The notes below the pieces were generated by a model. The model searched no databases. It saw only the letters and a program-made list of their open reading frames with translations, and was not told the DNA's origin. A program made the translations under genes and the position numbers. Positions 3,344 through 61,022 of a DNA stretch of 64,000 nt are shown piece by piece. Position 1 is the first letter of the stretch. Each line of letters begins with the position of its first letter. This stretch comes from Whitmania pigra. Its lineage: Eukaryota > Annelida > Clitellata > Hirudinida > Haemopidae. Where the stretch lies: the NCBI GenBank assembly GCA_021613335.1, contig JAJTWR010000042.1, positions 62,001 to 126,000 of the forward strand. Direction: 5' to 3'.

Positions 3344-3770
3344 TGTTGCAAACGAAAATTAGTGTGTTGAAAATCCTGCTTGTGAATCTTGAACTAAAAT
3401 GATAATGACATATTAAAAATATCCACAAAACAACTATTAACCTAACAACAAAAGCGCCTTATTCGTAATAATTTCCTTTTACTTTTTTTACCTTCAACTA
3501 ATTAGACTTTGCAAACAGCAATCTATTAAGTGTCTCCCGAGGTTAACAAGTAACTGGTTTTTTGTTATCCTATTTTGATCGTGATGCCTTTCCAAGATCT
3601 TTTATAATATATGGCTGAAATAAATATATCATAAATATAGAGATCCAGTAATTTTTCTCGCTTTTTGTATAACATAAATGAATGTAGTCACCGATTCTCT
3701 AATTGAACATTCTTTCAAATTGGCTTTGATAACATATTGACGAGTTTTTCCTGGTCCTGTTTTATTTTAG
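3344..3770 (+). other. Intron block homologous to copy B (left duplication edge)
   Basis: From CAGTGTTGCAAACGA at 3344 onward the sequence aligns with copy B intron 4 from 22349 (CAGTGTTGCAAACGAT, then TTGAAAATCCTGCTTGTGAA and TTGAACTAAAATG). In B the alignment is interrupted at about 22715-25235 by repeats and resumes at ATTCTTTCAAATTGG. Left of 3344 and 22349 the two differ completely, which marks a breakpoint. Confidence 0.7.
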
Positions 3771-4681
3771 GTGAGCCTTCAACTGCTAAGTCGCATGTGT
3801 ACTGGGAGGATGAATTTATGTTTGCAACAATTAACACAAGAAATGAGACTTACTTCATAGAAGTATGTTTACGTATTTTGAAATGAAATTTAAAATTTTC
3901 GTAATTTTTGTGAAATGTACAGATTGGGATTTATTAGATCTCTTTAATGGTACATCATTAATTTCTGCCTCAATTAGCTCGATATGTATCATTAGTGGAT
4001 TGAGTGATTAGATGGATTTTGAGACATGTTTCGACTTAGCAGTTACCAGTTTTATATGGCTATTTGAGAAACCTAGTTGCTGTTTATTTTGTCAAAGAAA
4101 AAAGGATTTATGACAAGGTTTTTTGTTTGGTTTAGATATGATTTTTTTTTTAAATTCTTTAAAGCCGGCTAAAAGGTATATTCAGTCAATGAATGACGTT
4201 ATGGTAGCTTACAGATTATCGGACATGAAGGAGGAACTTGTTGGTTCCGTGTGAGTGCTTTTTATTTCGCTCAAAAAATAATTTGTGAAGATTTATTTTT
4301 GTCTATTTCTGAGATAAATAACATTTTCAATTCAGAGATTTTTGCCGAATGGTTTATGCCCCAAAGTTGCGGAAAGTTAACAGAGGTTTATAATAAATTG
4401 TGCACCGATTAATTATTATTCAATTTATTATAACCAAGTATTAATCGGTTTATTATAACTAATTATTTGTCAATTTAATAATAATGCAAAGAATGATTGA
4501 GTCGAGTTTAAATTTTATTTTTTAAGTGAACTCCCGAACCAAGCATGACACATCACATAAAAGGACAAAACGAAGCTATGCTCATCCGCATGAAAAGGCT
4601 TGCACATTAGTTATTGTGGCAGATGTTAACTATTTTGTTAATGTCGGGGAAGGAAGTTACATGAAAACAACGAAGTCGCTG
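3771..4681 (+). CDS. ADAM copy A, late prodomain, furin-type site and first protease strand (4 exons)
   Basis: Exons 3771-3862, 4165-4250, 4336-4385 and 4527-4681. The first reads [16 protein letters not shown]..., matching the conserved GE(P/E) region of ADAM10/17 prodomains. The second opens with PAKRYI, like the PAERYI motif of ADAM10. The third carries DFCRMVYAP; its cysteine is the best cysteine-switch candidate. The fourth contains RTKR, a furin-type site separating prodomain from enzyme, followed by [19 protein letters not shown], the first strand of the reprolysin fold. Exon 3771-3862 is base-for-base identical to its copy-B partner. Confidence 0.87.
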
Positions 4682-7600
4682 GTGAATATCCTTTATTTGC
4701 TAGGATTGTTTACAAGTACTTTTACGAAGTAAAAATGTCAATACCATTACTTTGTTTTAAAAGTTTTTTGTGCAATTTTTAATTGCTATTGGCATTATTT
4801 TTGGCAATTCTTTGTCCTCACATTTAATACCATATCTCACGTACCAAAAAATTTTATTGAAATTTGAAATTATTTGAAAAAAATGATTACATTTATTTAT
4901 CATTTTGCTTGACACAGAAATAGTAATATTTCGAAATATTTAAGTATCTTGACACTCAGCATCAGTATCAGTATCTATCCATTGTTGCGGTAGCGGATAA
5001 TCCAGTGTTGAGGTCTGCATGCAACTTTTTTATGCGGAGATATCGATTAAGAGACTATTACTCTGGTGTTGTATGGCCAAATATCTGTCGACTTCTTGCA
5101 AAACTGCAAACCAACAGCAAAGTTATTTGTTGTAAAACGCAGTGAAGACATTTGTGGTAAAAACATTCTGTTTCTGGCTCCAGCGTTTTATTATCTGAAT
5201 TTTTGCCACCTTTTTTGTCTTCTCTCTGTATCATTGAATTTAGTCATAGAAACTCTTGCGAGCGGCAAGGACTTGAACTCCTGACGGAGCTATACCAAAG
5301 CAAAAGCTTTAACCATTCGCCCACGGATGCCAAGCGGACGCCGGATTTATTGTCATCACAAGGCTTGCTTTCTGGACTTCATCACTGATCCAGTAAATTT
5401 ATATTGAGGGTGGACTCCAACTGCCAGTTAAGCATCAGTTTTCTATTTCGTGTCATCAAATCTTTATCCCAGCTCTCAATCCATTAATCAGTGGTAACGC
5501 TAATGGTAATGGATTTGTCGTGTCTTCCGATAGACCATTCAGATGGTTCGTCATGACTGCCAGTGTTGGGAGTAAATACCTTAAACCTTGCCTTTTCCCT
5601 CGTAAATGTCTAGGCCGCATACCAATATCGATTCTCAAAAAGAATCGTCGATAGTATCGCCGCGATACCAATGCTGCGGTATTAACAACCATGCGTGTGA
5701 TATATCCTTATAGGTTTGCAATGTTGCTTAAAGTAAAACTTGTAAATGTCAAGCATCGTAAACATAGCATTATGGACATTCCCAAGGACGCTTTTACGTC
5801 TAGGATAGCCAGATTGAGAGCATTATGATTTTTCCTTTTTACTTCATTTGACGTCTTTTGACAGAAATGAGATTCTCTTTGAGCACCTTGCAGTTTATTG
5901 AAAGATCACTCCGACAATATCTTGTTTTCCAATTTCTCTCCACATATCTTTCAGATTGCAATGTTTTCCAGAATAAATGCCATTTATCTGGAAACAACAT
6001 TTCATAACTTCACCGAGTATGGATTACTTGTGAAAAAGGTTATCTTTTGAATATTAAGTTTTTAAATCTAAAGAATAACCATAAAAGTTTACATAAATAT
6101 ATATTTACAGATAGTAATACACAAGGGTGACGCGGGCGATGGCTATTCTTATAACGAGCGTGGGAGGCGGTGGACCGCCTATTCGCTTTTATTGGTGAGA
6201 ACTTTTCCATATGTTATAAGTGGCATTGTCGCAGAAGTATTAGTTTATAACTAGAATACAACATTGGAATAAGACACTCACTAAACTTAGTTTAGTTACT
6301 AAGTATCATATTAATCCCAATTATTGTTATGACTTTAGTTATAGGGAAATTATGAATTTTAGCGAATGTAAACAGAAAATGTTAACATTTTGAGCAAAAA
6401 ACCGAAATTGCGCAAGAAAAGCAGTGGCGGTATGACAGCAAAAAACTTTTATTTATCAGGATCAATCAAACTTTCAAATTATAAAAATAGTAAAGTTAAG
6501 GATGTGTCTTGTCATTTCGTTTGAATTACCTACGAATTCGCTTTTTTATTGAATTGAATGTTTATTGTTGAAGGATTTCATACTCTGTAAGTCAACTCTC
6601 TCCATGCTTTTTCAGAACTTTTTCCAGTGTCTTTATGCCAGAATATTGTTTGATATTGATATTACTTTGTTAGCAAGCAATCCCCACATATTTTTTATCG
6701 GACTTAAGTATGAGGATCGAGTAGAGAGCTTCTAGATTTGAATATTCCTCCTGAAAGAACAAACGTACGACTTTTGAGGTGCTTATCTTGTGAAAAATAA
6801 CTTAACCGACCTAGATTTTGTTACACAAACGTAGGATGTAGTTGCTCAGAGTTTCAATATGATTTGAGAAATTCTTCATTCCCTCTACGACCATCATTTC
6901 TGAGGAACCGAGAGAAGGAAATGGATCTCCAAATTTTCGACTTAAGAATGAGGTCCCCTAACCTCATGCTAACAATATTTTAAGTCATTTAGATTACACA
7001 ATTTAATTTTTTCCATTAGAGAAAATGACAAAACTCCTGTTCACCTCCAGTTTCACCACTTACCTGTCCCGGTTAAGCCGATCTTTTTATGAACTTCTGG
7101 AAACAAAGACTTGCAAAGAAATTAAAAATTGTACTTTGCAAGTGTATCTGCACATTATAAACTTGCTCTGATACAAATTCAGCTCGTTTTAAAGTTTCAT
7201 TGAAGGTCAATTCGCTTTGGAAGCTTCCTGTCATGGATTCTCTTCTGACGATGATCCATTTTTCACGTCTTCCTCACACGTCCATATTGTCTTGAAACTT
7301 TCCAAAACCGTATGACAACATCTCTGGAACGTTTAATTCTATTTTAAATTTTAGACAACGACTTACAAGTATTTAGCTGGTTTTTATGCCTTTCGTTGTC
7401 CTCAACATATCGCTAAGAAGCTTTCCTAAAAATATCTATATAAACTTAAATAATCCTATGAAGAGCTAATAAAATTTATAACAATCAAAAAGTTAACTAA
7501 CATTGTTCATTACATGCGGAACCTTATTATAATAGCCAGACTTTAAGATCCCTGTAAAAAGCGCTGTCGAATGTAACCATACGTAAGCGATTATTTCCCA

Positions 7601-10600
7601 CCAAGAAGCCTGGACTAAAACATCTGAGCTTTTATTCTGCGCCAATTCAACACCTTCTTTAGAACACATCACTGAATTATCAAGGATTCAGGACAAAATC
7701 TGGGGGAGGCAAAGTTATGAGACACAGAAAGAGTCAAGCCATTATCAAAAGTTTTTTTTTAGTTTGTATAGGTTTGAGTTTACTCATAGTTTAACATAGA
7801 TACCTTGATATAGGTCAACACCGCTTATAGGTTCATTTGTTTGATGCAATGTTAAACTGTCTTTATAGGCAGTATTTTAGAGCAGCGGGATTATTCCACA
7901 AAGTTGCCACAAGTATCGGACGATTTTGTTTATTATTATAAGTTACTATGAGTTATCATGAATTATTAATACCAGGAGTCGATAGACCAGTGAATAAGAC
8001 TTTGGCCTTGTTGTTCAAATCCCAGCTTCTCTCAAGAGTTTTTATAACTAATACCTGCTGATGATTTTATTCCATCAAATGACAGATTTATTTTATGACA
8101 ACTTGGATCCAGACATGGAATAGACATTCGCATTTAAAAAAAGTGTCTAAATTTCTTATACATGGTTTGCGACATTCCCGGCTAAAATTTTCCGTGTCAC
8201 GGGGTCCCCGGTCGATTCCCATTCTGAACGAATTTTCTTGGATTTTCTAAGATATATTATTCATAATCAAATTTTACTGTACAAACCTTTTGAGATATTA
8301 TTAAATGTTACTAGAAGCATAAAATAATCGAAACTTTATGTAAATATACGTAGCCGTTTTCCGATAACTAATTTCAGATAGCTAAAAGGCCGAATTTTTG
8401 AGTGCTTGGAGTTTTTGAGTATCTGGACAGGATGTCATGGTGGTTATTTTTATAAAGCCTTTATTTATTTATTATTTATTTGTTTGATTAAAGTCAGATA
8501 CATGACATAGATGATTTTGACTTTTAAAATGTTTTGAATTTTTTGGCTGAAAGGCACTTCTTCAACGATCTATAATTTATATGGCGTCCCTGCCCGAGGG
8601 CGCTCCCTGACGGTGAAGGCTGGGTTGCGAACACGACACGTAACGCCATTTACTAATGACTATTGCTTTTACTGTCGTTCTCAGAAACGCAAACATTTTT
8701 ATTGGCCAACTTGCTAATATTCTTACAAGTGTCTTATTCCGATGGCAGGCACCGTGAAATGATTCTCGCGCGTCTGCTTATATTAATGCTGGAGTTGTTT
8801 CATTTGTAATATAAATCGACTTTTTTAAGGAATTTTCCAAGAAAGTGCTCGGAAACTATTGTTTAGCTCATCTGGTAACATTTTCACCTATGGATGACAC
8901 GCTCGGCCTCGCTTATGTTGGCCGCACTGGGGACAGAGGTGGAGTGTGCTCTGTGTGTTTAGGCATGTATTTTGATTGATTATATAAATATTTTAGGGAT
9001 GCGAGCAATTAAAATTTGTTTGATCTATTAATTATAACACACATATATTCTAACTACTTTTATCCAATCTTGTTGCGTCTTGTATGTTGTCTTACTGACT
9101 GGCTGTTGCCCCCTCCCCGACTTTAGGATAGAAGGAAAATGGTCACTTCTTAAAGTCTTGCGAGGGTTTGCCTCTTGGAAAAAGCTGAATTGAAGTCCTT
9201 GTATCTGAGAGGGCAGAAACATATGGGTGCCTCAGATAACCCTTTCCATCTGGATGGTGTGCTCCACTAAGCTGCCATCCCAATTAATAATATAAGGTAG
9301 AAATGTGAAGAGCATTTATAAAGACACGGTGAGACTTTTGCCAGAGAATGTGGAAACATTACTGTTTCTTAAGTGTAAGTATTTTAAGACCAATGGGTCA
9401 TTCTACAACGTTTCCCTAAAGGCAGTTTTTACTGTAATTCATTTTCAGCCTTCTTTTTTTTTTTGAAAAATCTAAAATTGGAAATTGCTTGATCCTAATC
9501 CATTTATCTCTGAAGTTGATGTGCTTGATTTGTCAAGAGGTCTCTATTTTGTACTAATTATTTTTGTGATGCTTAATATTGGTGCATATTGCGACTGAGT
9601 AATTCTTTGATTCAATTATTCATACAATAATTTGGACTTAATTTATGCAAAAGTTATTTTATTTAAGCTGAAAAAAAAACTGGGACACTGTGTATGAACA
9701 CCGGGATATCATCACTACTTTTTTCTGGAAAATTGCTACCGTCAGTTCAGGCAGATCTGGTTGTGGCTCATGGTAATTTAGTTAGCTCCTGCTTAATTGA
9801 ATTGCTAATTTAAATTTATGTAACATTTTTATTAAACAGAGATTGGTAAGTACAATTTTATTTTGTTTGGAACCTGTTTGGAATCAGAATAACCATAGTT
9901 TCTCAAAACGTTTTTTTAATTTTTGATTGTTTTTAACACATTTAATCTTAACCAATCAAGACTAATCAATATCCAGAAAATCTTCCTTTGACATTTTAAA
10001 ACCTCTGCTTTCTAAGAACTAGTTCCTGTGAGTTGTTGTGGTGACCATATATAATATACTGGTGGCCGATTAGAAAGCGCATTATTGAAACTTAATAATC
10101 AAAGTAAATATAAAACGTTTAATGTTTAGTGATGAATAGGGTGGGTCAATGCGATTTTGTGGCTCAATTGACTTTGGATAACAAAATAATGTTGTTCTAT
10201 CATCTAAATTACATTATAAAAATAAGTTCGTCAAAAATAATTTTGCCTTGCATTGAAAATCAGTCTTTATTCGATATTGAAATATATAAGGAAAATGCAG
10301 TAAATTCTCAATTCAGGGCTTATAACTTCAGTTATGTATTAATAAATATAAAGTAATATACTATGACTTTATTCATTTGTTTACTAACACTCTATCAATT
10401 TACATGAATGTGACTGCACACAATGAAAATTATTTAAACATACAAATATTATCAAAGTACATAACTCTTGCCGAGTCAGTTTTCTGAGTTGTACAATCTT
10501 TGAAACAAAATGTGGAATATACTTTCTAGATAGAAGCTCTAATATATCGTATCTTCTCATTTCTACACAAACTGATGCTGCGGCTTCTTTGACCAATTTG

Positions 10601-13600
10601 ATAGATCTTTCTAAATTTTGGGTGTGGCACCTGAAGGCATTTAATGTCCATTTTTGCGGTATTTTTATTGCATTTTCAATTTCGTCATCACTTACATCCT
10701 TCAACATAGGTAGGTGAATACTCAGAAGATCTTGCCAATTTACAAGACTATGGTAATCCTCTGCATCTGGTTCATAGGATGAATTATGAATTTACTTACC
10801 TCTGCAGAATCTGCGGCGATGGATTATCTGTCACATTACCTGGTAACTGTAGGAAACTTCATCGCAATTCTACCAGATTCATTTTCTGTGCCTTCATTTG
10901 AGTCCTCACCAGACACTTCCATAATATCTAAATCAGTATCATAACTTTTGCCAAATGATGCTTTACTAGGTTTGCTACCAGGAAGGGAATTACAGTATTT
11001 ATGTCTATCTCAGTTGCTTTGGTTAGCTTGTAAGTAGTTTCCTCGTCCAAAGGACCAATAACCATATTTATTTCATTTCTTTGCTGACATCTTTGATTGT
11101 CTCGGACATTATAATAGCCATAATAGCCCGGCGACAAAATAGCCTCAACAACAAGGCCATGTGATGGTGCACACTTCTGCAACCATTACATTGAACAACT
11201 AGCGTTGTTGATCTTTTGTTCAGCTCTGCCTTCACTATAGCGGATGATACTGATCGTCTTTGTGTAGACATCTGAGCTATTCAAATCTAGGATCCAACGC
11301 CGTGGCAATGTCTAACCATGATAAATTGCAATTTTTATGACGTTGCCAAAGTCATCAGTACAAGCCTTCTTGAACCTAACCATACAGACGGTCATAATCA
11401 AATCGTCATGGAATGAAAAGGTGACAGAACAACGGAACAAGAAATGTACCTTTTTCCACCCAAGAGCTACAAGGCTCCATATGAGTTTCCATTATTCTTA
11501 GTTTTTCCCACTCTTGATCATTTAGGAGAAACAGATTTGTGATGTGAATTATCAAAATCTGCTGAGTCTGTTGCTTTATTTCTTACAAGCCGCTGGATCA
11601 ATTGCAGAGTGGAGTGACATGTTGTATCAGAGACTTAGATTTCTGGTCGAGTGTGCTTTGTTCAATTTCAAGCTCCACATCATCTGCGGGGCTATGCCCG
11701 AAATGGCCAACTATTTTTCGTGCTTTCATAAACCTATATGAGATTCAAGTTCCTTCCTGAATGATACATAGACTCGCTTTGATGTATGCTGCAAGCTACA
11801 GTAGAATTTTATATATTTGAAACTGAATTTCTCCCAAAATCGAGCTATCAGTGTTGCTTGTGGCCATCAAAATGAAAGTAGAGGGCAAAACGAAGAATTG
11901 ACATATTTTCATTAGAAATATTTAAAATTTATAAAATTAAATGAAATTGACGGGTTAATCTCCCGTTGACGCACATAAATCTGCAGCCCTACAAAATATC
12001 TATTTTTTAGATCATTTTGTGAGATATTAACTAGACAAACTAATGGATCTATCTTATAATAAGGTTATTATGCATTAAGCGTGCCTGATTTTCGAAAAAT
12101 TAACACATTTTCTAGGTGATTTTTTTGGATTATGGGTTAAAGTACTTTTCCAAATATTTGATTTGTTGTGAACCAATGTTAGAACTATCGAGAAAAAATG
12201 TTGGTCATCCTTGCAGGATACATAGCACTAAAGATTGTGGTATTTTGTATTTTTGCCTAATTTAAAAACAAAAACTACCGATCGTATTCCGAAGAAGCCT
12301 AGCCTGTAATTTAGTGGTAGTTTAGACAAATTGACAATTCGTTATTGAATAAATGAGCGTAGTTTTAAAAATATTTAATTTGATAGATTTTTTGAACCGC
12401 ATAACTCAAAACAAAAAAGAATTAATTTATAGATTTTCTGATATATCTAAAAAACCCACCAAAAATCATTTTTCTGACCTCACTTACCACAATAATCGAG
12501 ATACATAATATGTGGCTGATTTAAGGAAAAATACAAAATTTGAATTGATTTGATCTGACATCCACAGAGTCGTTGCGAAAGTTGTTAGGTTTATTTGGGT
12601 TAGTTCTGAGCTTTATAGCATTTCAAATTGAAGATACAATAAATTACCTAGAATAATAAGAAATTTCATAGACTTAACTGCCTTTTAAGGTCACGGGTTC
12701 GGATCAGTTCACGATAGTGAGATATGCGCACCTTCAAAGATCCAAGGTGGAAGGTACTTGATGTATTCTCAAACCAATTCTGGAAAAGATCCAAACAACA
12801 GGGTATTTTTCCGCAACAACTTCTGAAGTAAATAGTTACTTGAGATGACTATATTAGCGGTACTTGATTTCAGAAATTTTCCGACTGCAGTATTGAAACT
12901 ATGGGTTATACTTTGAGCACGAACGGTGGATGTTTTGTAGGTGAGAATAGTATGTCTAAAATGGGTTACCGCTCAAAATGTTTTTTTAACTTCATAACTT
13001 ACATAAATGTGTTCGTAAAATAAAAAAAACAAAAGTCTTGCGAAATTCTTAAGTATTCTATTAATATTTACTGATCGCTCAACGCTGACAGTTTTATGTG
13101 AGTGGGATATTATGTTTACAAAAAAATACTTCAAAAATAATCAACGATTCGAATTATCGATTTAACGCAGTTACTTAAAATGTTGTGATATCTATTATTT
13201 ATCTGGTGCGTCTGCAAACATGGTCTGGGTTCCATGTTATGTTCGTACCGAAGTAGAACGGAGTAGATATAAATAGATGGATAGAGCGCATCTATTCTTT
13301 CCCGAATTTTCCTTTCATTCAAGAGTTCACTTATGGACAGATTTGACTCTAATGGCGTGCTCCTTTAAATGTCCTCCTCCCTTGGCACCAACTTATGGGT
13401 TTCCTTCTTCCTCATCAAAGGATATCTAATCCATTAAATATTTCTGATTGGTCGAACAACCTTACCTTACTTCTTGAAACATACTTAAGCCAGATGTTGT
13501 TTGCCGCAGTAGTTGCATCTGCTTGACCTGAAATGACATTTGTTTGCCAATGGTCTTTTCCCCACATCTAATGCAGGCACCTTTTTAACAAGATCCTGAT

Positions 13601-16600
13601 AAGGAGAAAAATTTGAACATGAGTCTGATTGGTTGAACAAGGTCTTCTGACTTCTAGAAAAAATTACTTTATATTATATTGGGGCTGCGAACGCTTAAAA
13701 TTTTCTTAGTTGATTAATCGAACATCGATTAAATTCGATTTATTATAACACATATATTCCAACTAGTTTTAGACGATCTTGTTGCACCTCTGCATTAGTC
13801 GGTATACACCACACAAAATCATCCGACCTTAATTAGCCAAAACAATCGTATCGCACAAACACAAATTGTGTCACTTTTGTAAATTCGCTTATTTGTTTAA
13901 AAAGTTATCGTCAAGAAACGTAACTGGGCATAGTGATGTCGTGACCGGACAATTCGTCCCGAACAATTCGTCGCAAAAAAACGAACAATTCATTTTATAT
14001 TTATATATTTTAAAATGGTTTCATTATTTTCAGATAAGAAATAAATCATCAAACGTAAAAAATGAACTGAAATAATGATGAAAATCAAAATAAAAAAATC
14101 ACTCGAAAGATGTTATTTCGTGATTTTATTTTATTTTATTTGAAATACTGCCCATCACTGATTGCCTTATTATAACGTTGCAGTAGCGTCTAAATGAACG
14201 GACTTGCCCCATTTGCGAATTTGTGGTTCCTGAATATAAGATGATTATATAACGTATTATATTTTACTTAATACTAATTCTTGACATAACTTTGAAGTAA
14301 CATTACAATAACTAATAATATAATTATTTTAATGGTAAAAATATTAAACATATTGTGGTAATAGTTATATTATTATATTATTGTCATAATAGTCAAATGG
14401 CACATTTTTATTAAAATAAATTTATTTTAAATGACTTGTTCCAATTGGTCCTAGGCCCATATTTAGGGGAGGGTCACGGGTTTCCCTCGAAATATTAAAA
14501 AAAAATATTTTAATTATAAATTTAATTTATTGATTTATACAACATAAATTTATAAAATCTTAAACCATCTTTATTTATTTATTATTATTATCATTTTATT
14601 TTGATTTTGATTTTGAAACATAATAAAATGAACCTCCCAAATCAATTTCTGGCTACGGGCCTAATTGAATTGTCCGCGACGAATTTCCCGCGATGAATTA
14701 TCCTAGCAATCTAGTAATGTATCTATTAACATGACGTGCTTGATTTTGTTAGGCATATGCGGATAAGATATTTTATTTAAATAGAAATGGAGGAAGACTA
14801 TTGTGGAAATGGTATAGTTGAAGAGGGCGAACAATGCGATTCTGGTTTTTCGATCGGCATTACCGATCCTTGTTGTACAGCTGAATGCAAGCTCGAAAAA
14901 AACGCCATGTGCAGGTTATCGAAAGCACAGTTTTTTAAAGCGATTTTTTGATGCCTGGTTAATATTTTCAATGTAACAAATGATTCTTTAAAATCTCGTT
15001 GCGTGAATAGTCCAGCAAACTCGCCGTGCTGTTCAATACAGTGCGGTGCTGCAAAACTTGGAGTAGAATGCAGAAGCGCCAACCCTATCAAATGCTTGAA
15101 GCAGTCAATTTGTGAATATCCTTTTTCTTTGTTGGGAATATATAATTTCATATTCTAAAAGACTTTTGCTTTACATTAATTTTCTTAATAATTTGTTGAT
15201 ACTGGGGTTTCTTTCGAATGTGAGGACGAGGAACATATGGAAGATGGGACATCCTGTTTAAATGGGTAGGGTTGTGATTATTGTTCGTTGTACTAATTTG
15301 ATTTAAAATCACTTCCAACAACTTTAACAGGGGCATCTGTTCAAATGGTACTTGTCATTCTTTGTGCGAAAATGACAATCTCGAAGAATGTACTTGCTCT
15401 AATGAAGGTTTGACTTGAAAAGTATTACTGACTTTTAATGGATTAATGGAAACTCCCCTAATTAGAATTTGTTTTATCAATCTTTGATATTTCCATCTAA
15501 CGTCTCACCCAATTGATTAATTGATTATGTGTTATTATTCAAGGGTGCCTTTGGGTTACTATGTTTTGGTTCACAGTGTGTTTACGTTGACTGATACAAA
15601 TTTGTGTTTAGCGGTCGTTGACTTTTCAATTTGGAAACAAAAAAATAAATACCATTAAGTCCTGCGATTTTATCTATACTTCAGGTGAACCTTGCGTCCT
15701 CTGTTGCAAAGGCGACGATGGAATCTGCAGTCCTTTCCATAAAAAAATAATTTTGGTGGATGGTTCATATTGTGCTGCAGGAACATGTTTGGAGGTAAAA
15801 CATTGATTAGATATCTATATTTCAGCTCTTACAATTGTTTGCAAGCATGTCTCATTCAAAAGAATCTAGAATTTCATTACACTGCTTTAAAAATAGCTTA
15901 TTTTGAAGTATTTCTGTGATTTACTGAGAAAGTCATTTGATGGATGCAAGTACCCTATTACTTTATTTCAAATTTTCACTTAATTGCCTTTTAAATTTCG
16001 TAATGTTTGTGATTTGTATCATATTTGTTAAGCATCTACATTTGACTTATCATGTGAGCAAATATTTAATAAAATAAAAAGCGAGTTAACTAAATGAGTA
16101 TTAATTATTAAACGCTAAAGTTGACTTAACGAATTGATTTGAGGTCAAATCAAACAAAGATGCCTTTTCTCAATGATTACAGGGGATCTGCTCAACAGCA
16201 TTGGAATCTCAGATGAAAACAATTAGGGCATGGGAAGTAATAACTAAAGAATACTTTAGCAGCATAAGTGAATTCATTTGTTTTTATCTATCCTTTTACA
16301 ATCGTTCATAGGTAAAGGCTTCATTTTTCAGGGAAATTCCTGAAGGACAACGTGATATTGGTGATCCTAGTGGTGACCATCATTCCGTATCTCTTCGCTT
16401 CTTTTTATATTTGCAAAATGGTTAGAGCCATAAACTGACTTATACATTTTCATAAATGTCTAATTCAGCTTAACATAAACTAATATATTCATATACTCCA
16501 CGGATAAATTACGTTTTATTGTGCTTATTTATTAATGCAATCTTACATTGTGACTAGGATTATTACGCGGTGGTTGAAGAAAATGAACTCAGAGAGTGGT

Positions 16601-16776
16601 ACAGCACGAGGGTAATATGTTGAAGGATATGTTAGATGTTTGCTTTAATCAAAGTTAACATAAGCAACTATTTTATAACTTCACAGAGCAACGAATTGTT
16701 CTGGAAGAACTCCACGGTGATTGTGAGGGTTGTTCCTGGAGTTAAAGTATTTCGTCGTGACGAAGTACTCTCTTGA
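3771..16776 (+). CDS. ADAM10/ADAM17-type metalloprotease, copy A (exons 5-24 only in window)
   Basis: Membrane-anchored zinc metalloprotease of the ADAM10/ADAM17 (kuzbanian/TACE) subfamily, a class of cell-surface sheddases. Twenty exons join in frame: 3771-3862, 4165-4250, 4336-4385, 4527-4681, 5955-6038, 6111-6194, 8830-8962, 9668-9772, 9840-9845, 12690-12802, 12874-12940, 14785-14914, 15011-15115, 15203-15265, 15331-15407, 15685-15794, 16183-16267, 16332-16420, 16558-16611, 16687-16776 (TGA). Every exon has the same length and phase as its partner in copy B, and none contains a stop. Together they give late prodomain, protease, disintegrin/membrane-proximal region, transmembrane helix and tail. 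The first exon opens in mid-codon, so upstream exons are required. None is visible in 1-3770, so this is either a gene starting left of the window or a 5'-truncated duplicate. The intron after 8962 would use a GC donor. Confidence 0.88.
5250..5340 (-). repeat. tRNA-like SINE head (tentative)
   Basis: On the minus strand the sequence has a D-arm-like GGGCGAATGGTTAAAGC and a T-arm-like AGGAGTTCAAGTCCT at plausible spacing. The acceptor stem does not pair, so it is not a functional tRNA. It lies in intron 8 of ADAM copy A. Confidence 0.4.
5955..12940 (+). CDS. ADAM copy A, metalloprotease domain exons
   Basis: Exons 5955-6038, 6111-6194, 8830-8962, 9668-9772, 9840-9845, 12690-12802 and 12874-12940. 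The residues include CLAHLVTFSPMDDTLGLAYV, then ADLVVAH, and the zinc site [12 protein letters not shown] assembled across three exons (HExxHxxGxxHD complete). The Met-turn is YLMY. The protein ends this domain with FSDCS...GGCF, as in ADAM17 (FSNCS...ECF). The glutamate codon of HExxH is finished by the 6-nt exon 9840-9845. All residues expected for an active enzyme are present. Confidence 0.88.
6195..8829. repeat. Large intron of ADAM copy A with dispersed repeats
   Basis: Intron between protease exons 6111-6194 and 8830-8962. About 7880-8240 matches 23730-24070 (GACATGGAATAGAC, GGGGTCCCCGGTCGATT), a dispersed repeat. About 8575-8660 has the GGCGCTCCCTGACGGTGAAG type motif, related to 24640-24760. 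I see no coding sequence. Confidence 0.5.
8963..9667 (+). other. Intron with putative GC donor (copy A)
   Basis: The exon ends TGTTTAG and is followed by GCATGT, where copy B has GTACGT. The next exon begins after TTTAAG at 9668 and the phase (1) is kept only with this boundary. A GC-AG intron is therefore inferred. About 9105-9430 matches 23245-23750 (dispersed repeat). Confidence 0.6.
9840..9845 (+). CDS. 6-nt micro-exon AGATTG (copy A), part of the zinc-binding motif
   Basis: The preceding exon ends GCTCATG followed by GTAATT. The six bases AGATTG lie between an acceptor (AAACAG) and a strong donor (GTAAGT). The next coding exon starts GTCACGGG at 12690. Only with these six bases does the frame read H-E-I-G-H: CAT G|AG ATT G|GT CAC. 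The upstream intron is 67 nt and the downstream intron about 2.8 kb. Copy B has the same arrangement at 33260-33265. Confidence 0.87.
10384..11271 (-). pseudogene. Relic of an unrecognised transposon-like gene
   Basis: Minus-strand fragments. The 107-residue frame 10384-10707 contains FRCHTQNLERSIKLVKEAAA followed by CVEMRR; the CHTQ...ER..KLV pattern recalls uncharacterised transposon-associated proteins of invertebrates. Two overlapping frames at 10928-11271 may be more N-terminal pieces. Frames do not join without breaks. It lies in the intron after the micro-exon of ADAM copy A. I cannot name the family. Confidence 0.35.
13940..14705. mobile_element. Non-autonomous DNA transposon (MITE) with a nested MITE
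   Basis: The left end has GGACAATTCGTCCCGAACAA and the right end, reverse-complemented, GATAATTCATCGCGGG then AATTCGTCGCGGACAATTC, giving degenerate terminal inverted repeats. Inside, about 14450-14660, GGCCCATATTTAGGGGAGGG faces AACCTCCCAAATC...GGGCC, a second short inverted-repeat element. No coding sequence. Lies in intron 15 of ADAM copy A. Confidence 0.5.
14785..15794 (+). CDS. ADAM copy A, disintegrin and membrane-proximal domain exons
   Basis: Exons 14785-14914, 15011-15115, 15203-15265, 15331-15407 and 15685-15794. They encode the cysteine-rich disintegrin segment ([35 protein letters not shown]) and the membrane-proximal segment ([23 protein letters not shown]), whose cysteine spacing follows ADAM17 more closely than ADAM10. 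Exons two and three are separated by an AT-AC intron (15116-15202); the join gives C-D-G-V-S-F-E-C in frame. Confidence 0.88.
15116..15202 (+). other. U12-type AT-AC intron (copy A)
   Basis: The intron begins ATATCCTTT, an exact match to the U12-type AT-AC donor consensus, and ends in AC. TTTCTTAAT at 15181-15189 fits the U12 branch-point consensus TTCCTTRAY at 8 of 9 positions and lies about 14 nt before the 3' end. No GT-AG alternative restores the frame: there is no AG in the roughly 45 bases before the downstream coding sequence. Intron length is 87 nt. Confidence 0.9.
16183..16776 (+). CDS. ADAM copy A, membrane-proximal helix, transmembrane segment and cytoplasmic tail
   Basis: Exons 16183-16267, 16332-16420, 16558-16611 and 16687-16776. 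The second encodes a hydrophobic run ([20 protein letters not shown]) followed by CKM, the stop-transfer helix. The last two give a tail of 47 residues ([18 protein letters not shown] then SNELFW...RRDEVLS) ending at TGA 16774-16776. I see no proline-rich SH3-binding tail of the ADAM10 kind. Nearly identical, introns included, to 45980-46573. Confidence 0.87.
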
Positions 16777-17724
16777 CTTATGTTTTTTTTAGTTGCTCTT
16801 GTTCTACGCTTGTTAATTCTTAGGCGTTTCATTTCAATTTCAAGAAAAGCTTGTGGTGATTAAAATCAAAATTTTAAGACTTTGTAAATGAAAATAACGG
16901 ATGTCCTCGTAAAGATGGAAGGTCCTTTAAAAACGGATTAGTTCGGACAGGGTAGGGGAGGGGTACTAGCTTTTGCTTGATCCACGCTTTAAAAATGTTG
17001 AGTAATTTTTAGATTTTAGAAATTTAATTTTTTTTTAAATTATTTTATTTCCATAATAATGGATATTTAAATATTATTTTATTTGCATTTATTAAAATTT
17101 GCAAAAACTCCGGAACGAGTTGAAAAAAAAATAAGCCTCAAATTAAGGCAAGCATTTTTGTTACAGTCTACGGTAGAGAGAAATTAATCAATCACCAACA
17201 ATCAAGAAAAATTATTAGTTACATATTTTACAGATCGGATGCAATCCCAAATTGTCAAAAATTGGCAATTCTCCAAACTTACGACATTATTTCATTAGTT
17301 TGTCCAATTATCACTTAATCGATTAAAAAACCTGGTGAAAGTCTATTGTTGTTCTTATTTATTCAGATATGGGAGTATATTAGGTTTTGGTATTGCGATA
17401 CCTTGAACTTATTCCGAGGAGGTAACAAAGACTAAGAAATAAAGAAAGCTATTAGGGTTACCTACAATTTAGAAGGCAATTAAATTATTAATAATTATAG
17501 TAATGCGCAAACCGCGTTGGAAAAGCCATTTGCCTAAACTTAAGCAATAATCATGTTTGTAGGTTAATCCCGTCAATGGTTGCATAATACGCACATCAGG
17601 CGTGTCAAACTCAAATGGCACCGAGGCCACATATGACAATTTGAGTATATCGGCTGGCCGCACCAAACTTCAGAAAGCTACACTGTATAAGACGCATGCT
17701 AAAACCGCTGCAGTAAGCTACAAT
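16777..17724. other. Intergenic region downstream of ADAM copy A
   Basis: Homology with copy B ends about 15 bases after the stop codon. I see no AATAAA in the first 150 bases, unlike copy B. The remainder is AT-rich with no exon or transposon end that I can support. Confidence 0.45.
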
Positions 17725-23200: not shown

Positions 23201-26200
23201 AAAATCTCAAAAGAAATTCGGTCTTTTTGAATCAATTGATTTTAGGATAGAATGAAAATGGTCGCCTCTTAAAGTTTTACGAGGGTTTGCCTTTTTTGCC
23301 TTTTTACGAGGGTACAAGAGAGCAAGTATAAGAAGAAACTTGTTGATGGATCCTTTCTTTCTAGAAGGTGCGTCCTAACTAGCTGCTAGCAGAGCGGCAA
23401 ACCTGGAGTGGATGGGTAGACGAATGCAACCCTAGATGGTTTGGCGGCGCACTGGATTCGGGTTGAGGTCTGGCGAGGAACTTCCCTCAAACGGCCTCGG
23501 CCTGAAGGGAAATAATGTTTGGGTTCGTGGACCATGAGGGTCCCCTTCTAAAAAATAAGCAAAAAAAAATCGGATGCAATCCGCAAGAAATAATAATAGC
23601 GGTTGGATGGATGGCCCACCTGCCAGCCCAAGTGATGGTGAAAGCAGTTCTAAATGGCATTCGTGGTCAGTCGTTTGCAAAAGTATGAGGAAACATTACT
23701 GTTTCTTAAATCTAAGTATTGTAAGAGCAACATTACTCCACAAAGGTGCTCTAAGTATCAGACTATTTTGTTTATTATGATGAATTATTACGAGTTGTTA
23801 TGAATTATTATTACCTGGAGTCGGTAGATTAAGACTTTGACCTTGGTGCGACTCCATTAGGGGTTCAACTCTTCAACCAGCCTGTCTCAAGGACTTTTAT
23901 AAATAACACCTGATGATTTTATTCTATAAAGTGAGAGATTTTATGATAACTTGGATTCAGACATGGAATAGACGTTCGCATTTTATTTAAATGTCTAAAT
24001 TTCTTGTTTTCCGACATTACCCGGCTAAAATTAGCCGGGACCGGGGTCCCCGGTCGATTTCTAATTGGACCACTACACCTACTCGTTGGCGTTCCCCTAG
24101 AGTTGGCGTCATTATTATGGTGTTATTATCATCATCGTTATCATCATTATCATTATTATTATTATTGTTGTTGTCGTCGTCGTCCTTGTTGTTGTTATTG
24201 TTACTGTTATTATTATTAATATTATCATCTGGTAACATCTTTGGTAGCCCAAAATTTGACAATCAAAAAAATTTGTCAGTTAGTCGGTGGAGGCTAACCT
24301 GTTTTTGTTGTTAGAGAAGATGAGCTGACAAAAAAAAATGTTTATATCAGAAAATATAGGGATTAAAATTTTGGTATCACCTGGGTGCAGCCCGCACCCC
24401 CCAATGACGCCACTGCATAACCGTCATTTTAGGGGATTGTTGGAGATGTAAGGAGAAAAAGCCATTGAGTTTCGGCACCCATTACTTCTCCACGATTTTG
24501 CTTCACCGCCTTCGAGTTGGCCAGGCTGCCTGCGAAGGCACCAAAAAGCTTTTCATCGATTAACTTACCAACTTTGGTTGTCTTCACTTCATGAGGTCCT
24601 AGATATTTACTTCGGAAATATACTTAATTGTAACTTCATTTATATAGCGCCATGTGCATAGCGTCAGAGGCGCTTCTTGTAACCATTTATATAGCACTCC
24701 TTCCCAAGGGCGCTGACGGCAGTGCAGTCTGGATTTCATTACGAATGTTGCCATTTTCGCCGTATACAGGCACGTAACCCATTCGGCTAACATGCACGCC
24801 CCAATCTTGGGCATATTCATTGATTAAAAATGCAAGTTATATTGGATTGAAAATGATCTTAGCATGACTAGACAAGCCATGAGAGCAATAGTTCTGAAAT
24901 GAAATCAAGAACCTTAACCTCTCAAACATTGATTGATAAGATTATTTTTGTCTATACTTTTAATATATAATCTTAATATTATTAAGTTAATATCAATTCT
25001 TAGCGCAAATTGTCTCTGAGTGCAGAGGCTTTGTCATTTTGTCTAAAAGATAGTTTACTTAAGGCTATTTATTATTTGGTAATAATAATACATTTGTTAT
25101 AGAATAACTTAATTGCACCTGAGACAAATATATACAAATAATGTTTCAGTTTTGGCAATTTAACAAAATTTAAAAAAATGGTGATTAGTTGTCCTTGAAA
25201 CTTGAGTACTTGGTCCAATGTCTGATTCTAACTTTGAAAATTCTTTCAAATTGGTCTTGATAACATGTTGAATTTTTCCTAGTCTTGTTTTATTTTAGGT
25301 GAGCCTTCAACTGCTAAGTCGCATGTGTACTGGGAGGATGAATTTATGTTTGCAACAATTAACACAAGAAATGAGACTTACTTCATAGAAGTATGTTTAA
25401 GTATTTTTAAATGCAATTTAAAATTTTCGTAATTTTTGTGAAATGTACAGATTGGGATTTATTAGATCTCATTATTGGTACAAATTTCTGCCTCAATTAG
25501 CTCGATATATATTATTAGTGGATTGAGTGATTAGATGGATTTTGAGACATGTTTCGACTTAGCCGTTTCCAGCTTTACCTTGCTACACATGGAATCCAGT
25601 TGCTGTTTATTTTGTCAAACAATAATGAATTGGGGTCAAGGTTTTTTTCTTGGTTTAGATATGATTTTTTTTAAATTCTTTAAAGCCGGCTAAAAGGTAT
25701 ATTCAGTCAATGAATGACGTTATGGTAGCTTACAGATTATCGGACATGAAGGAGGAACTTGTTGATTATGTGTGAGTGCTTTTTATTTCGCATAAAAAAT
25801 ACTTTGCATTTGAACAAATTTTTTTTTAGCTATTTTTAAGATATAAATATAAGATATATTTTCAATGCAGAGATTTTTGCCGAATGGTTTACGCCCCAAA
25901 GTTGCGGAAAGTTAACAGAGGTTTATAATAAATTGTGCACCGATTAATTATTAATCAATTTGCTATAATCAAGTATTAATCAGTTTATTATAACAAATTA
26001 TTTGTCAATTTATTACTAATGCATGGAATGATTGAGTGGAGTTTAAATTTTATTTTTTAAGTGAACTCCCGAACCAAGCATGACACATCATCTAAAAGGA
26101 CAAAAAGAAGCAATGATCATACGGATGAAAAGGCTTGCACATTAGTTATTGTGGCAGATGTTAACTATTTTGTTAATGTCGGGGAAGGGAGTTCCATGAA

Positions 26201-29200
26201 AACGATTAAGGGGCTGGTGAGTATCATTTATTTATCATTGTTAGAATAATGAAAAATGGTGTATGAAATATCCTTAGAGGTTTGCCTTTGTTGCTTAAAA
26301 TAAAACTTGCAAATGCCAAGCGCCATAAGAACGGATTTGGGAGGTATGGCTAAATCTATTATAAATCACAATTTAATAAAACATTTCAATTAAAACTTAA
26401 AAAATGTATTTCAATTTAATTTTTTTAACATTTCAATAATTGACCCACTTTTGACAAATATTTTTCTTGCTCTTCCCCCCAAAGTGTTCTAGATCCGCCC
26501 TTGGCCATAAACTTGGTCGGAGTAACGGGAATGACATAGGAATGAATAAGAACACTAATGCAATTTATTTTATTAAAAATAAATATTAAACCAAATTAAA
26601 TGTAAATTAGTTACATTAACTTAGTTAAATTGTGAGATTGCAATAAATTCCGCTGAGGTAATCGAGAGGTTTATCTGTGTTTAAAAAGAGTACGAAGACG
26701 TTTAGTTTCAAGTACTTAACCTTCGATAAGCTATATTAAATTTCAAATGCAAATCAAACTCTTCATTGTACACATTGAAATTACACTATAGGATATAAGT
26801 GTCTGATTCTCTTTGTGCAGCTCGTATATGCTTTGTCAATCGATAATTTTTATTAAGTGCCATTCTGAAAAGCCCATATATGGGATCACAGAAACAGAGG
26901 GATTAGCTGAAATCCTAATAATATTTTAGACGGTAAATCTTCCATTTTATGAAATTTCCTGTTACCAAAAAATCTAAAACAGTCATAAAAGCATTCAAAC
27001 CACTAAATTCGAATTAAATTTTTAATCATTTTCTTATAATGTAGTCAACTCATAAAAATTAATTTGTTTCAAAGTTACATTGATATATTTTGGGCTATTT
27101 TGACCAGCTTACATAATATCTCGGCAAGCCAGATTCAGAGCATTACTTTTCCACAGAGGTGTTAACCTTATGAGCAGTTTATCACTCCGACAATATCTTT
27201 TCTCCCCTTTTCTTTCAGATTGCAATGTTTTCCAGAATAAATGCTATTTATTTGGGAACGAAATTTATGAACCTCACCAATTATGGATTACTTGTGAAAA
27301 AGGTTATCTTTTGAATATTAAGTTTTCAAATCTAAAGAATATCTTTAAAAGTTTACATAATTAATTATTTATAGATAATAATACACAAGAGTGACGCCGG
27401 CAATAAATATTCCTACAACGAGTTTGGGAAGCAATGGACCGCCTATTCACTTTTATTGGTGAGACCTTTTGTCACTTTATATATAATAACTACAACCGCG
27501 AATAACAGGCATACTTTATAACAACAGTCTCAAAAACTCGTCTAAAAAACTCAATTCAATACAACCGCAAATAGCACCGATATAAATTCAAAACTAAAAT
27601 TGAGCTATTCAGGTCAAGCTAGGTGGAATAACTCTCACTTGTCTGCCTCCATTAATGTTTGAGATGTTTTCATTTGTAATACGATTTGACTTTTAAGGAA
27701 TTTTCCAAGAGAGTTCTCGGAGACTTTTGTTTAGCTCATCTGATAACATTTACATCTATGGATGACGCGCTCGGTCTCGCCTATGTTGGGCGCACTGGGG
27801 AGAGAGGTGGAGTGTGCACCCAGTGTTTAGGTACGTACTTGGATTTGTTTCATAAATATTTAAAATCATGCGGTTAAGCCTCGAATTATACTTTCTCAAT
27901 TGTTGATTGGTAGAATAAATTACATTTTTTTGCGATATGAAAGAAATAAAGATTAGGTTTCGTATTCATTTATTAGCTTCTTATATTTTATGAACAATAA
28001 AAACTACGAATGTGAACATTTAAATTTGCAGAAAAACTTTGACCAATATGCTAAACAAAAGGAAATCGTGAATCCATAAAATAATTAAATAGAAAATATA
28101 AGAAGTAACTGCTCAACTGTTGTCATGGTTGTGTGAACACCCACCCATACAATTTCTCAAACATTAGTTTCCCATGATATGTAGATTAGCTAAAGTCCGG
28201 GCGGAGTTAAACGAATGACGATTATCGTATAAATTTTCATTGCACATTAATGTTCATCGTATGACTGTCATGCTAAGAAAGCGAGAGAATCCAGGAGGGT
28301 CGTGAAGCTCTGTTGAATGTTAACTAGTTTGTGTTCTAATCGCCTTTAGTTTGGGCAGTTGCTGTTCGATTATTAATAAAGTTATTCAAGATGCTAGTTA
28401 TAGAACTTGTGGTGACAGCAGTTACGTGCTCGAGAGACAGAGATGTGACAGCTATTGTAAATTATTAAAAAGTTTTGACAGTGATTTGTTTGGGTCTTTC
28501 TGTGTTCGTCAACCTTACTTGTCCTGATTCAAATTGTAAGTCTTTTAAGGGAACCATTGAATTGGCATAAAATAATAGTCCAGATATTATATTCCAGGAT
28601 TTTGGATGAGAAAGGACAACAGTTACAAGATCAGAATCGACAGTTTCATATATAGCTTCGTTGATACTAGTAAATAGGACAATTACAAATTAGTGTTAGG
28701 GAAATAGTTGATTCGGTATAGGAAGCAGCCAACAATATTAAAACAGCTACTTTTCAATTTTTACCATGGTCACAGTACAAGATATACCTGAACAACCAAG
28801 GAAAATCTAAGAGGTTGAGATAATACTAGATATTGTGGAATTCTCAAAAACAGAAACAATTTAGCAGCTGAATAATTGGAAAGTAGAAAATTTGATAAAA
28901 AGACAAAAGCATAGATAACTTATATCCAAGACTACTGTATGAGACAAGAACATTAATTATAGAAGAATTAGCAAACTTACTTGTCAAATCCTTCGAAAAT
29001 ATACAGGGAGAGAATAAGCAAGGAGGATGTAACAAAATTTTTTGGAATAAATGAAGTGATTGTGAAGAGCCAATATGGATTTATTTAAGCATGTACCGTA
29101 TTTTCACGAAATAAACACGCAGACGAATTTAACACGCAATTTTTCCAATTTATGTAAAAAATCACTTATAAAACACGCAAACGATTATAACACGCACCAA

Positions 29201-32200: not shown

Positions 32201-35200
32201 ATTCACAAAATTGATTTCATGTTTTCTAATCATTTGATTTCAAATACTACCCATCACTGGCTTCGGGAAATTTAAAAAATAACTTCACGCAAATGTAGTT
32301 TCCCTGTGAAATAAAGTAGATAAGGAAACCATGCGGATACGATAGACAAATTTAAGATACTTTGTCCGGTATGGATATTACTGGTAGATTTTTAGAGATA
32401 AGCAGATCCATTCGAACTCTGTCATTAACTTCCTAATGACGTTGCTCTTTTACTCGCATGGTTTGACTTGTTCCTCAATTAACAATTTATTTTTAATTTT
32501 TTCCTTCCTTGCTATGATGATTAAACAGGAAATTTGAAAAGCACAAATACAAAATACATTTTTACACTTTTTTGTTTAAAAATGCATTTAAAATGTTTTA
32601 AATTAACAAGTTTCGGAACCATTCCGGACATGCTTTTATTAAAGTTTCACAGGTTCGCAATTTAGCATAGTCAATTAGGGTCAAATTATATTATAAATAA
32701 AATTATATTTTAATATATTCAAATAATAATTAAAATTATATTACAAATAAAATTATATTTTAATATATTAAAATTGTATTATAATTATATTATATTAGAG
32801 AAAAATTAGTTCTGGAAAAAAATGCATAGACCTAATTTTTCGCTATTTCAAGGTCTCCTTATAGGCCTTTTTATAATTCGTTTTTCGTCACTCTTTATTG
32901 TAAAATCTAAACTTTCACATAATTTGATCATAATCTATTTATCTCTGATTTTGATATGTTTGGTTTGCCCAGTAGTTTTATCTCTGTACTAATTATTTTT
33001 AAGATGCTTAATATTGTTGCATATTACGACAGAATAATTCATTGATTCAATTATTCATGCAATGTTTTGGACTTGCTTTGTGCAGTTGAACGTAAATCTG
33101 GGACATTTTGTATGAACACCGGGATATCGTCGCTACTTTTTTCTGGCAATATGCTACCATCAGCTCAGGCAGATCTGGTAGTGGCTCATGGTAATTTCGT
33201 TAGCTCATGTTTGATTTAAATGAATAATTTAAATGTATTTAAAATGTTTTACCAAACAGAGATCGGTAAGTACAAAGATTTTGTTTCTGGTTGAATCAGA
33301 ATAACCAAAGTTTCTAAAAACGTATTTTGAGGTTTTGACTGTTTTTGACACATTTAACCTTAACCAATCAAAACTTAACAATGTCTAAAACATCTTCCTT
33401 TGCCACTTTAAAACTCCCGCTTTCTAAGAACTGGTTCCTTGTGTGGTGACACACTGGGAGAACCATTGCTAGAAGCGATGTGAAAGTTATTATAGTTTAT
33501 TTTATTATTTAAAACCTAAAAGTTTGTTTTGGTTAGTTTTGAGGTTTATGCCATTTTAAGCTAAATTGACAACAAATTGCCTAGTAATAGATGGCCTAAA
33601 ATAATAAGAAATTAATTCTTAGAAATAACGGAATTTTAAGGTCACGGGTTTGGATCAGTTCACGATGGTGAGATATGCTCACCTTCGAAGGTACAAGGTG
33701 GAAAGTACTTGATGTATTTCCGAACCAACTCTGGAAAAGATCCAAACAACAAGGTAAAGTAATTTTAAATTTTCTATAGAGATATCTAATTGGTAAATAA
33801 TTACACCTAATGACTATATTGGCGATCTTGCTTGATTTCAGAAATTTTCCCTCTGCAGTATTGAAACTATCAGATATACTTTGACCACGAACGATGAATG
33901 TTTTTTAGGTGAGAATAACACATAAACAAATTTTTAGTTTTGAGCCACATAAAATGGTGTTTATGAAAAGAGCAGAAATAAGAATGACATTGCAATTCAT
34001 GGCAACGAACATCAACCCATGACGAAGTTTTATAATTTTGTGTAATTATTTGCATTGTTCTAGGCATGAAAACAATTTAATAAATAATTGCAAATATTTA
34101 ATTGCCAAACACTGCCCGATGTGATCAAAAATGTGACAGTCAGTTTAAACTGACACCAGCCGCGAAGGGTAGGGTGTTTTTTTTATATACATATTTATTT
34201 ATATTTGTTACTAAATACTCCGCCTTGGAGCTCCGACTGGGATCCTCAGAGGAGTTTCCCCCGTCTTCAAACGTTTCGGCCCTTTGAGTCTCCTTATGTT
34301 TTCGGGGGCGGGCCGCATCCGGTGATCAGCCGGATGTCCCTGTCGGTTTGGTCTTGCTGGACCCAACTCTTACCGCCGGCTTTGAAAGGCACTCGTTGGC
34401 CTTGTTATGCCGGTCACTGCTGCCTGGACTGGAGCGACTGCGAAAGCTCTCAATGGCTCCTATATGTCGCATGCTGTCTGTTTGTCGCCGGCTACTCATT
34501 GGCCTTGTTATGTCGATCGCCTCCACCCCAGTTTGCCTATAGCGGTCATGAAAGCTCTCAGTGGCTTCTTCACACCGCCTTAACATATGCAAACTGGGCC
34601 TTATAATTTCTTTGTAGCGGCAGCCGGAGATAGAAATTTTCGGGACTCGACCGCGGACCTTTTCGAAGCGGCGGTTTGGACCGCAGTTCATGTTGCTTCG
34701 CGAGTCCGCGGTCGGCCAATTTCTCCCGACAACACCGCTTCTTTCGGCCAATGGTTTGGCCCCGTCGTTCGGTGGATCGTTCGTTCGGCTTTACCCGGTT
34801 TCCCGTAGTGGCCTCTTCTGGCTTCTCATGTGCCAGATCCAGAATGAAGCCGCTTCTGCCGCCTCAGACATCCTTGTCATAGCCTTTGTTCTCTCCCGGC
34901 TTGACAATCCTTTCTTAGTGAGGAAAGCGTAAGTCGACTTGCCGACCACGCCCCTTGCGCCAATCTCGATGGGGTAGAGGTCTGTGCGGTATCTTCTTGC
35001 TTCCAGGTCCATCGTTAGATCTGCATACTTGTCTGCTTTGAGCGCATTGCTGTATTGCAGCCTGTCCTCCCACGCAACCGTCAGCTCCACCAGAATGATG
35101 GCATCCGTCGACGGCGATACGAGCACTAGATCCTCTCTTGGCCTCTTGCCACTTTTTATCAGCACCTGGGGGTAGTGCCTCATCCCTTCTAAGTCGGCTG

Positions 35201-46573: not shown

Positions 46574-46590
46574 CTTATGTTTTTTCAGTA

Positions 46591-61014: not shown

Positions 61015-61022
61015 CTTTTCTT

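Follow-up and report, generated by a model that had tools for sequence, protein, structure and literature searches.

A six-nucleotide exon predicted to supply the catalytic glutamate of ADAM17-like metalloproteases in the annelid Whitmania pigra

Background

The catalytic glutamate of a zinc metalloprotease lies within the HExxH motif, and an ADAM17-like gene of Whitmania pigra raises the question of where this residue comes from when the motif appears to be divided among three exons. The stretch of DNA analyzed here, referred to as the window (64,000 nucleotides; positions 62001-126000 of contig C26), contains an exon that ends in GCTCATG, and thus in the first base of the Glu codon, followed at a distance by an exon that starts with GTCACGGG. 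The original prediction held that six bases between them, AGATTG, constitute a micro-exon that completes the motif, and that its inclusion could turn the protease on or off.

Micro-exons of 6 nt are already known (PMC7821500, PMC4674806), and such tiny exons are often missed by annotation (PMC8831610). The accompanying statement that 6 nt is near the lower limit of splicing stands in part: according to a 2015 paper, 6 nt was until then the size of the smallest constitutive exon, but the smallest alternative exon measured 3 nt and the same paper adds a constitutive plant exon of 1 nt (PMC4674806). Among the literature matches listed, all of them open-licence papers, none described a micro-exon in ADAM17 or within HExxH.

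Results

Two ADAM17-like copies in the window

The partial spliced protein of the first copy (copy A; 192 residues) matched the Pfam families Reprolysin_2 (8.6e-18) and Disintegrin (PF00200; 1.5e-8, with a score of 35.7 bits vs the cut-off of 35.1), and its best PDB match was human ADAM17 (5e-31), with ADAM10 near at 1.3e-28, a small margin for copy A. With the micro-exon included, the spliced exons give the zinc motif HExGHxxGxxHD. Judged by these matches, the exons of copy A (Table 1) encode an ADAM17-like protease from its catalytic domain through the disintegrin region to the membrane-proximal region, resembling ADAM17/TACE (an M12B metalloprotease-disintegrin) in the catalytic domain with this motif after splicing, the disintegrin region, and the membrane-proximal region, and differing from it in that four close copies here form a divergent expansion. 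The second copy (copy B) occupies approximately 27.7-41.2 kb of the window.

The two copies are flanked by matching segments (3698-4698 with 25227-26233, and 16101-16788 with 45900-46585; 90% and 94% identical, respectively), which point to a tandem duplication; the 3' pair is better matched than most of the other segments. A 649-codon open frame on the reverse strand (43884-45833), located between two copy B segments, one at 41155 and the other at 45900, looks by eye like the reverse transcriptase of a non-LTR retrotransposon. Elsewhere in the window, a tandem array of a 203-bp unit (5.3 copies, 99% matches) spans 61022-62090, and no Rfam family reached its gathering threshold within the window.

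Table 1. Predicted features of the two ADAM17-like copies, in window coordinates
Feature	Position	Strand	Basis
Copy A, probable catalytic-domain start exon (45 residues); ends not fixed	4559..4693	+	Open frame 4526-4732, similar to C100/C381 segments; assigned by eye
Copy A, catalytic-domain exon core (26 residues); ends not fixed	8875..8952	+	Translation, match to copy B 27743-27820, human ADAM17 alignment
Copy A, exon ending GCTCATG (ADLVVAH and first base of Glu codon); donor GTAATT	9668..9772	+	Sequence, paralog match
Copy A, 67-nt intron 5' of micro-exon	9773..9839	+	Sequence, candidate scan
Copy A, micro-exon AGATTG (last two bases of Glu codon, Ile codon, first Gly base)	9840..9845	+	Sequence; same exon in five paralogs
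Copy A, 2844-nt intron 3' of micro-exon	9846..12689	+	Candidate scan
Copy A, candidate intronic splicing element AATCAGAATA, 37-46 nt 3' of micro-exon	9882..9891	+	Longest invariant run in downstream intron, four close paralogs
Copy A, exon starting GTCACGGG (38 residues); donor GTATTT	12690..12802	+	Sequence, copy B match, exon-pattern search
Copy A, exon after the GTCACGGG exon, KFSDCSIETMGYTLSTNGGCFV	12874..12940	+	Sequence, exon-pattern search
Copy A, disintegrin-domain exon (begins with 21 residues)	14785..14914	+	Sequence, copy B match, Pfam
Copy A, disintegrin-domain exon core (36 residues); 3' end not fixed	15011..15116	+	Copy B match, exon-pattern search
Copy A, membrane-proximal exon core (25 residues)	15332..15406	+	Copy B match, exon-pattern search
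Copy A, membrane-proximal exon core (35 residues)	15684..15788	+	Copy B match, exon-pattern search
Copy B, exon core ending GCTCATG; 5' end not fixed	33115..33190	+	Copy A match, motif scan
Copy B, 6-nt micro-exon AGATCG (synonymous Ile codon)	33260..33265	+	Sequence, candidate scan
Copy B, exon starting GTCACGGG	33641..33753	+	Sequence, copy A match, exon-pattern search

A single six-base candidate in copy A

AGATTG is directly preceded by AAACAG and directly followed by GTAAGT (longer flanks: TTAAACAG on the 5' side and GTAAGTAC on the 3' side), and the acceptor before the GTCACGGG exon is CTTTTAAG. Once spliced, the codons read CAT G/AG ATT G/GT CAC, that is, H-E-I-G-H. The whole 2917-nt span between the flanking exons was scanned for six-base units of the form A[AG]-[Ile/Leu/Val/Met]-G placed between AG and GT, and AGATTG was the single candidate. 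For the pattern scanned, then, the span holds no other intronic source of the Glu codon, and the objection that an alternative exon in 9850-12690 might supply EIG does not apply. The 21-base joined string GCTCATG-AGATTG-GTCACGGG had no match in the genome assembly (178 Mb, 381 contigs), as would be expected if it occurred in RNA alone. Joining of the flanking exons without the six bases keeps the frame and reads CAT GGT CAC, or H-G-H, with HExxH lost. The original prediction is accordingly supported on the position and frame of a 6-nt exon, on AGATTG as the sole source of H-E-I-G-H for the pattern scanned, and on the in-frame loss of the motif upon skipping.

Conservation across six genes

When the genome was searched with the peptide of the catalytic region, 16 matches were obtained, and of the genes into which these group, six are ADAM17-like: the two in the window and four on other contigs (C100, C381, C61, and C58), those on C61 and C58 being divergent. 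In all six, the preceding exon ends in CATG, the span contains exactly one 6-nt candidate at the same codon, in the same phase, and at the same place in the exon order, the candidate is bounded by canonical AG and GT, and the spliced codons give H-E-[I/L]-G-H. The context is AACAG/AGATCG/GTAAGT in both copy B and C100, AACAG/AGATCG/GTATGT in C381, CAG/AACTGG/GTGAGT in C61, and TAG/AACTCG/GTGAGT in C58; the exon that follows starts with GCCAT, not GTCAC, in C100, and is 48% and 39% identical to the query in C61 and C58, respectively. The variants AGATTG, AGATCG, AACTGG, and AACTCG thus differ by synonymous or Ile/Leu changes only, with E-[I/L]-G kept throughout. When used in a protein search, the assembled C58 peptide retrieved ADAM17-like proteases, and its best organism-named relatives among the matches listed were from the annelids Capitella (45%) and Paralvinella (39%), followed by the brachiopod Lingula. 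Because copies A and B, C100, and C381 are closely related paralogs, the six genes are not independent, and C58 and C61 bear most of the comparative weight.

Could AGATTG be a random match between an AG and a GT, with the real exon elsewhere or absent? At least one loose-pattern candidate appeared in 6.3% of 300 dinucleotide shuffles of the copy A span, a rate at which copy A alone might be fortuitous. At the other five loci, the same pattern arose in 0.3-1.1% of shuffles per span (1000 each), and no shuffle of any of the six spans produced the strict form YAG...GTRNGT. One candidate in each of six homologous loci, at the same place in the exon order, in the same phase, and with substitutions that preserve the protein, is by these counts far beyond chance, and the random-match explanation is already close to refuted.

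The introns on either side differ widely in length among copies A and B, C100, C381, C61, and C58 (67, 69, 69, 68, 169, and 271 nt upstream; 2844, 375, 373, 442, 211, and 154 nt downstream, in that order), which indicates that the introns drift around a stable 6-nt unit. In copy A, the downstream intron exceeds those of the other five genes (154-442 nt) by approximately 2.4-2.7 kb, probably through an insertion of at least about 2.4 kb; three reverse-strand open frames in 9846-12689 gave no convincing Pfam match. A search for relatives in viral contigs gave one stretch that fit a pattern and no confirmed relative. Across the four close paralogs, five of the six micro-exon columns do not vary and the sixth differs by a synonymous change in the Ile codon; nearby, 40.6% of 261 intronic columns are invariant. 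In the same four genes, Ka/Ks is 0.32-0.48 in all six pairs (178 codons from six exon cores, exons e1 and e6 being left out of the count), and by this measure they look constrained.

These values bear in both directions on a further alternative, in which copy A, perhaps with every other close copy, is a pseudogene in decay that keeps the micro-exon as a relic of a functional parent. A Ka/Ks of up to 0.48 is relaxed, the donor after position 12802 is GTATTT in copy A where copy B has GTAAAG, and the downstream intron of copy A contains the long extra stretch; together, the donor and the relaxed ratio suggest that copy A could be losing function. All the Ka/Ks values are nevertheless well below 1, the micro-exon and both its splice signals are intact in all four close genes, and six of the eight exon-core patterns match open frames in every one of them, the patterns for e1 and e6 having been too strict to match in any, with both exons open in alignments. 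Decay of copy A, or of all the close copies, therefore appears quite unlikely.

Other metalloproteases of the genome

The motif is split in none of 17 other distinct metalloprotease loci for which the DNA was read (a set that leaves out the PF13574 match C327:635869), which include two, on C356 and C274, that we take to be ADAM10-like from the motif HEVGHNFGSP. Hence, of the metalloprotease genes read in the genome, those of ADAM17 type are the only ones with a split motif. HExGH is contiguous within one open frame at 14 of the 17 loci, and locus L040 reads HELGH with a stop soon after. Loci L015 (G000:C183:2574-2666) and L016 (G000:C332:22898-22990) read HHIGH instead of HEIGH in a contiguous exon, and the replacement of the catalytic Glu suggests that they are naturally inactive paralogs. 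In addition, four COX1-like frames without stops were noticed on C115, C49, C360, and C47 (L045-L048); a 600-base sample of L045 appears GC-rich and of bacterial type, and the assembly may thus include contigs from a bacterial symbiont or contaminant.

Homologous proteins and a Paralvinella gene model

HExxH is present in 135 of 136 homologous proteins (16 from one search and the best 120 of 962 from another), as HEFGH in 118, HEIGH in 14 (P0016 among them), HELGH in two, and HEMGH in one. The sole exception, P0023 (LSH36_43g05043) from the annelid Paralvinella palmiformis, has a zinc site that reads VTAHGHNWGSEHD / LLVTAHGHNWGSEHD and is short by exactly the two micro-exon residues. This entry is labeled "hypothetical protein, partial" and sits on a 906-kb contig, and is thus probably a genome prediction, for which the simplest reading of the gap is that gene prediction missed the same 6-nt exon in Paralvinella. 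A search for further proteins with the two-residue gap had two candidates and gave back only its query, P0023, and so does not bear on how common the gap is. P0023 also holds, in series, two versions of the exon that precedes the zinc-site exon, GVLGLAYIGSPRTYSVGGVCSP and GTLGLSYVASRFRGDPGGICSHQ, perhaps mutually exclusive exons fused by the predictor.

Splice signals

The donor of the micro-exon is GTRAGT in five of the six genes, with predicted U1 duplex energies of -8.8 to -10.1 kcal/mol in five and -5.2 kcal/mol in C381, and upstream donors range from -3.6 to -5.1 kcal/mol. The micro-exon donor is the stronger of the two in every gene, and the downstream intron would therefore usually leave first. 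C381, where the margin is only 0.1 kcal/mol (-5.2 vs -5.1), counts against an order based on donors, its two donors being practically equal.

A UGC motif upstream is typical of neural (SRRM4-type) micro-exons; UGC occurs within 12 nt upstream of the six bases in two of the six genes (C58 and C61). A G-rich downstream enhancer has reportedly been described for cTNT; GGG lies within 60 nt 3' of the micro-exon in C58 alone, and a cTNT-like enhancer was set aside. The check for conserved intronic sequence proposed with the original prediction did yield a 10-nt block in the downstream intron, AATCAGAATA, which does not differ among the four close copies and could be an enhancer; an invariant run of 10 was reached in 5 of 2000 column shuffles.

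Discussion

We consider it highly probable, at nearly nine chances in ten, that AGATTG is a genuine internal exon of 6 nt, normally included by its ADAM17-like metalloprotease-disintegrin gene, that the exon predates the duplications behind the six genes, and that it is most likely spliced stepwise, with the downstream intron removed first. In the proposed mechanism, two introns would bracket the catalytic Glu, the strong donor 3' of the micro-exon would be used first, and removal of the downstream intron would leave the six bases as the head of a normal-sized exon, after which the intron on the 5' side, whose donor is weak, would follow. Such an order would prevent steric hindrance over so short an exon and disfavour the direct joining of CATG to GTCAC, and the product would have an intact HE[I/L]GH zinc site. 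A parallel is reported for potato invertase, in which the second intron leaves before the other (PMC4674806). Inclusion of the micro-exon in mRNA, the order of intron removal, and protease activity are what we infer from these genomic signals.

A regulated cassette, with skipping that yields an in-frame H-G-H protein acting as an inactive or dominant-negative sheddase, would instead make the six bases a switch, as the original prediction had it. The skipped product would probably be catalytically dead, since it lacks the Glu, its zinc ligands are no longer correctly spaced, and the E406A Glu mutant of human ADAM17 is called inactive (PMC12184519) and also inactive/dominant-negative (PMC7042727); skipping would be in-frame in all six genes. 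The alternative splicing of the potato invertase DPN mini-exon under cold (PMC3340406; PMC8483784), the invariant block 37-46 nt 3' of the copy A micro-exon, and the Paralvinella model that lacks the two residues fit such regulation as well. That model, however, is the only gap among the 136 homologs and a probable genome prediction, the donor strengths favour inclusion, UGC is found upstream in just two genes, and the exon itself is retained in all six. Use of inclusion as an on/off switch is thus unlikely, and so is the bolder proposal that tissue- or stage-dependent skipping, as a device common to annelids with P0023 as a real isoform, makes dead and possibly dominant-negative sheddases, which we regard as rather improbable. 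Regulated skipping, were it to occur, would turn an ADAM17-type sheddase on or off in a single step.

The closest precedent among known systems is a plant exon, the DPN mini-exon (9 nt) found in acid invertases and fructosyltransferases, which is likewise ultra-short and in-frame, encodes part of an active-site motif (WMNDPNG), has been kept through the expansion of the family, and is often missed by annotation (PMC3340406, PMC8831610). It differs in belonging to plants and to a glycoside hydrolase, in its length of 9 nt, and in its reported alternative splicing under cold. Animal micro-exons of equal length are found in chicken cTNT and mouse Dctn2 (PMC4674806, PMC7821500), that of Dctn2 being differentially included during brain development, and the excerpts of these sources mention no catalytic residue in either. 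The 1-nt exons of plant APC11 and VPS55 are extreme micro-exons too, that of APC11 constitutive, and stepwise intron removal has been proposed for them (PMC4674806, PMC8831610), but they are from plants and not in frame alone, and the corresponding excerpts mention no active-site residue. The 6-nt exon of the ADAM17-like genes, as predicted here, extends this known kind of micro-exon to a different enzyme class.

In the ADAM17-like clade of one animal genome, the catalytic Glu would thus be entrusted to an exon of six nucleotides. Gene predictors can drop such an exon and report a dead enzyme, as seems to have happened in the ADAM17-like model of Paralvinella, and claims of "pseudoproteases" in such genomes therefore need checking. 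With their varied intron lengths and donor strengths, the six paralogs are a natural test set for how the spliceosome recognizes a 6-nt exon.
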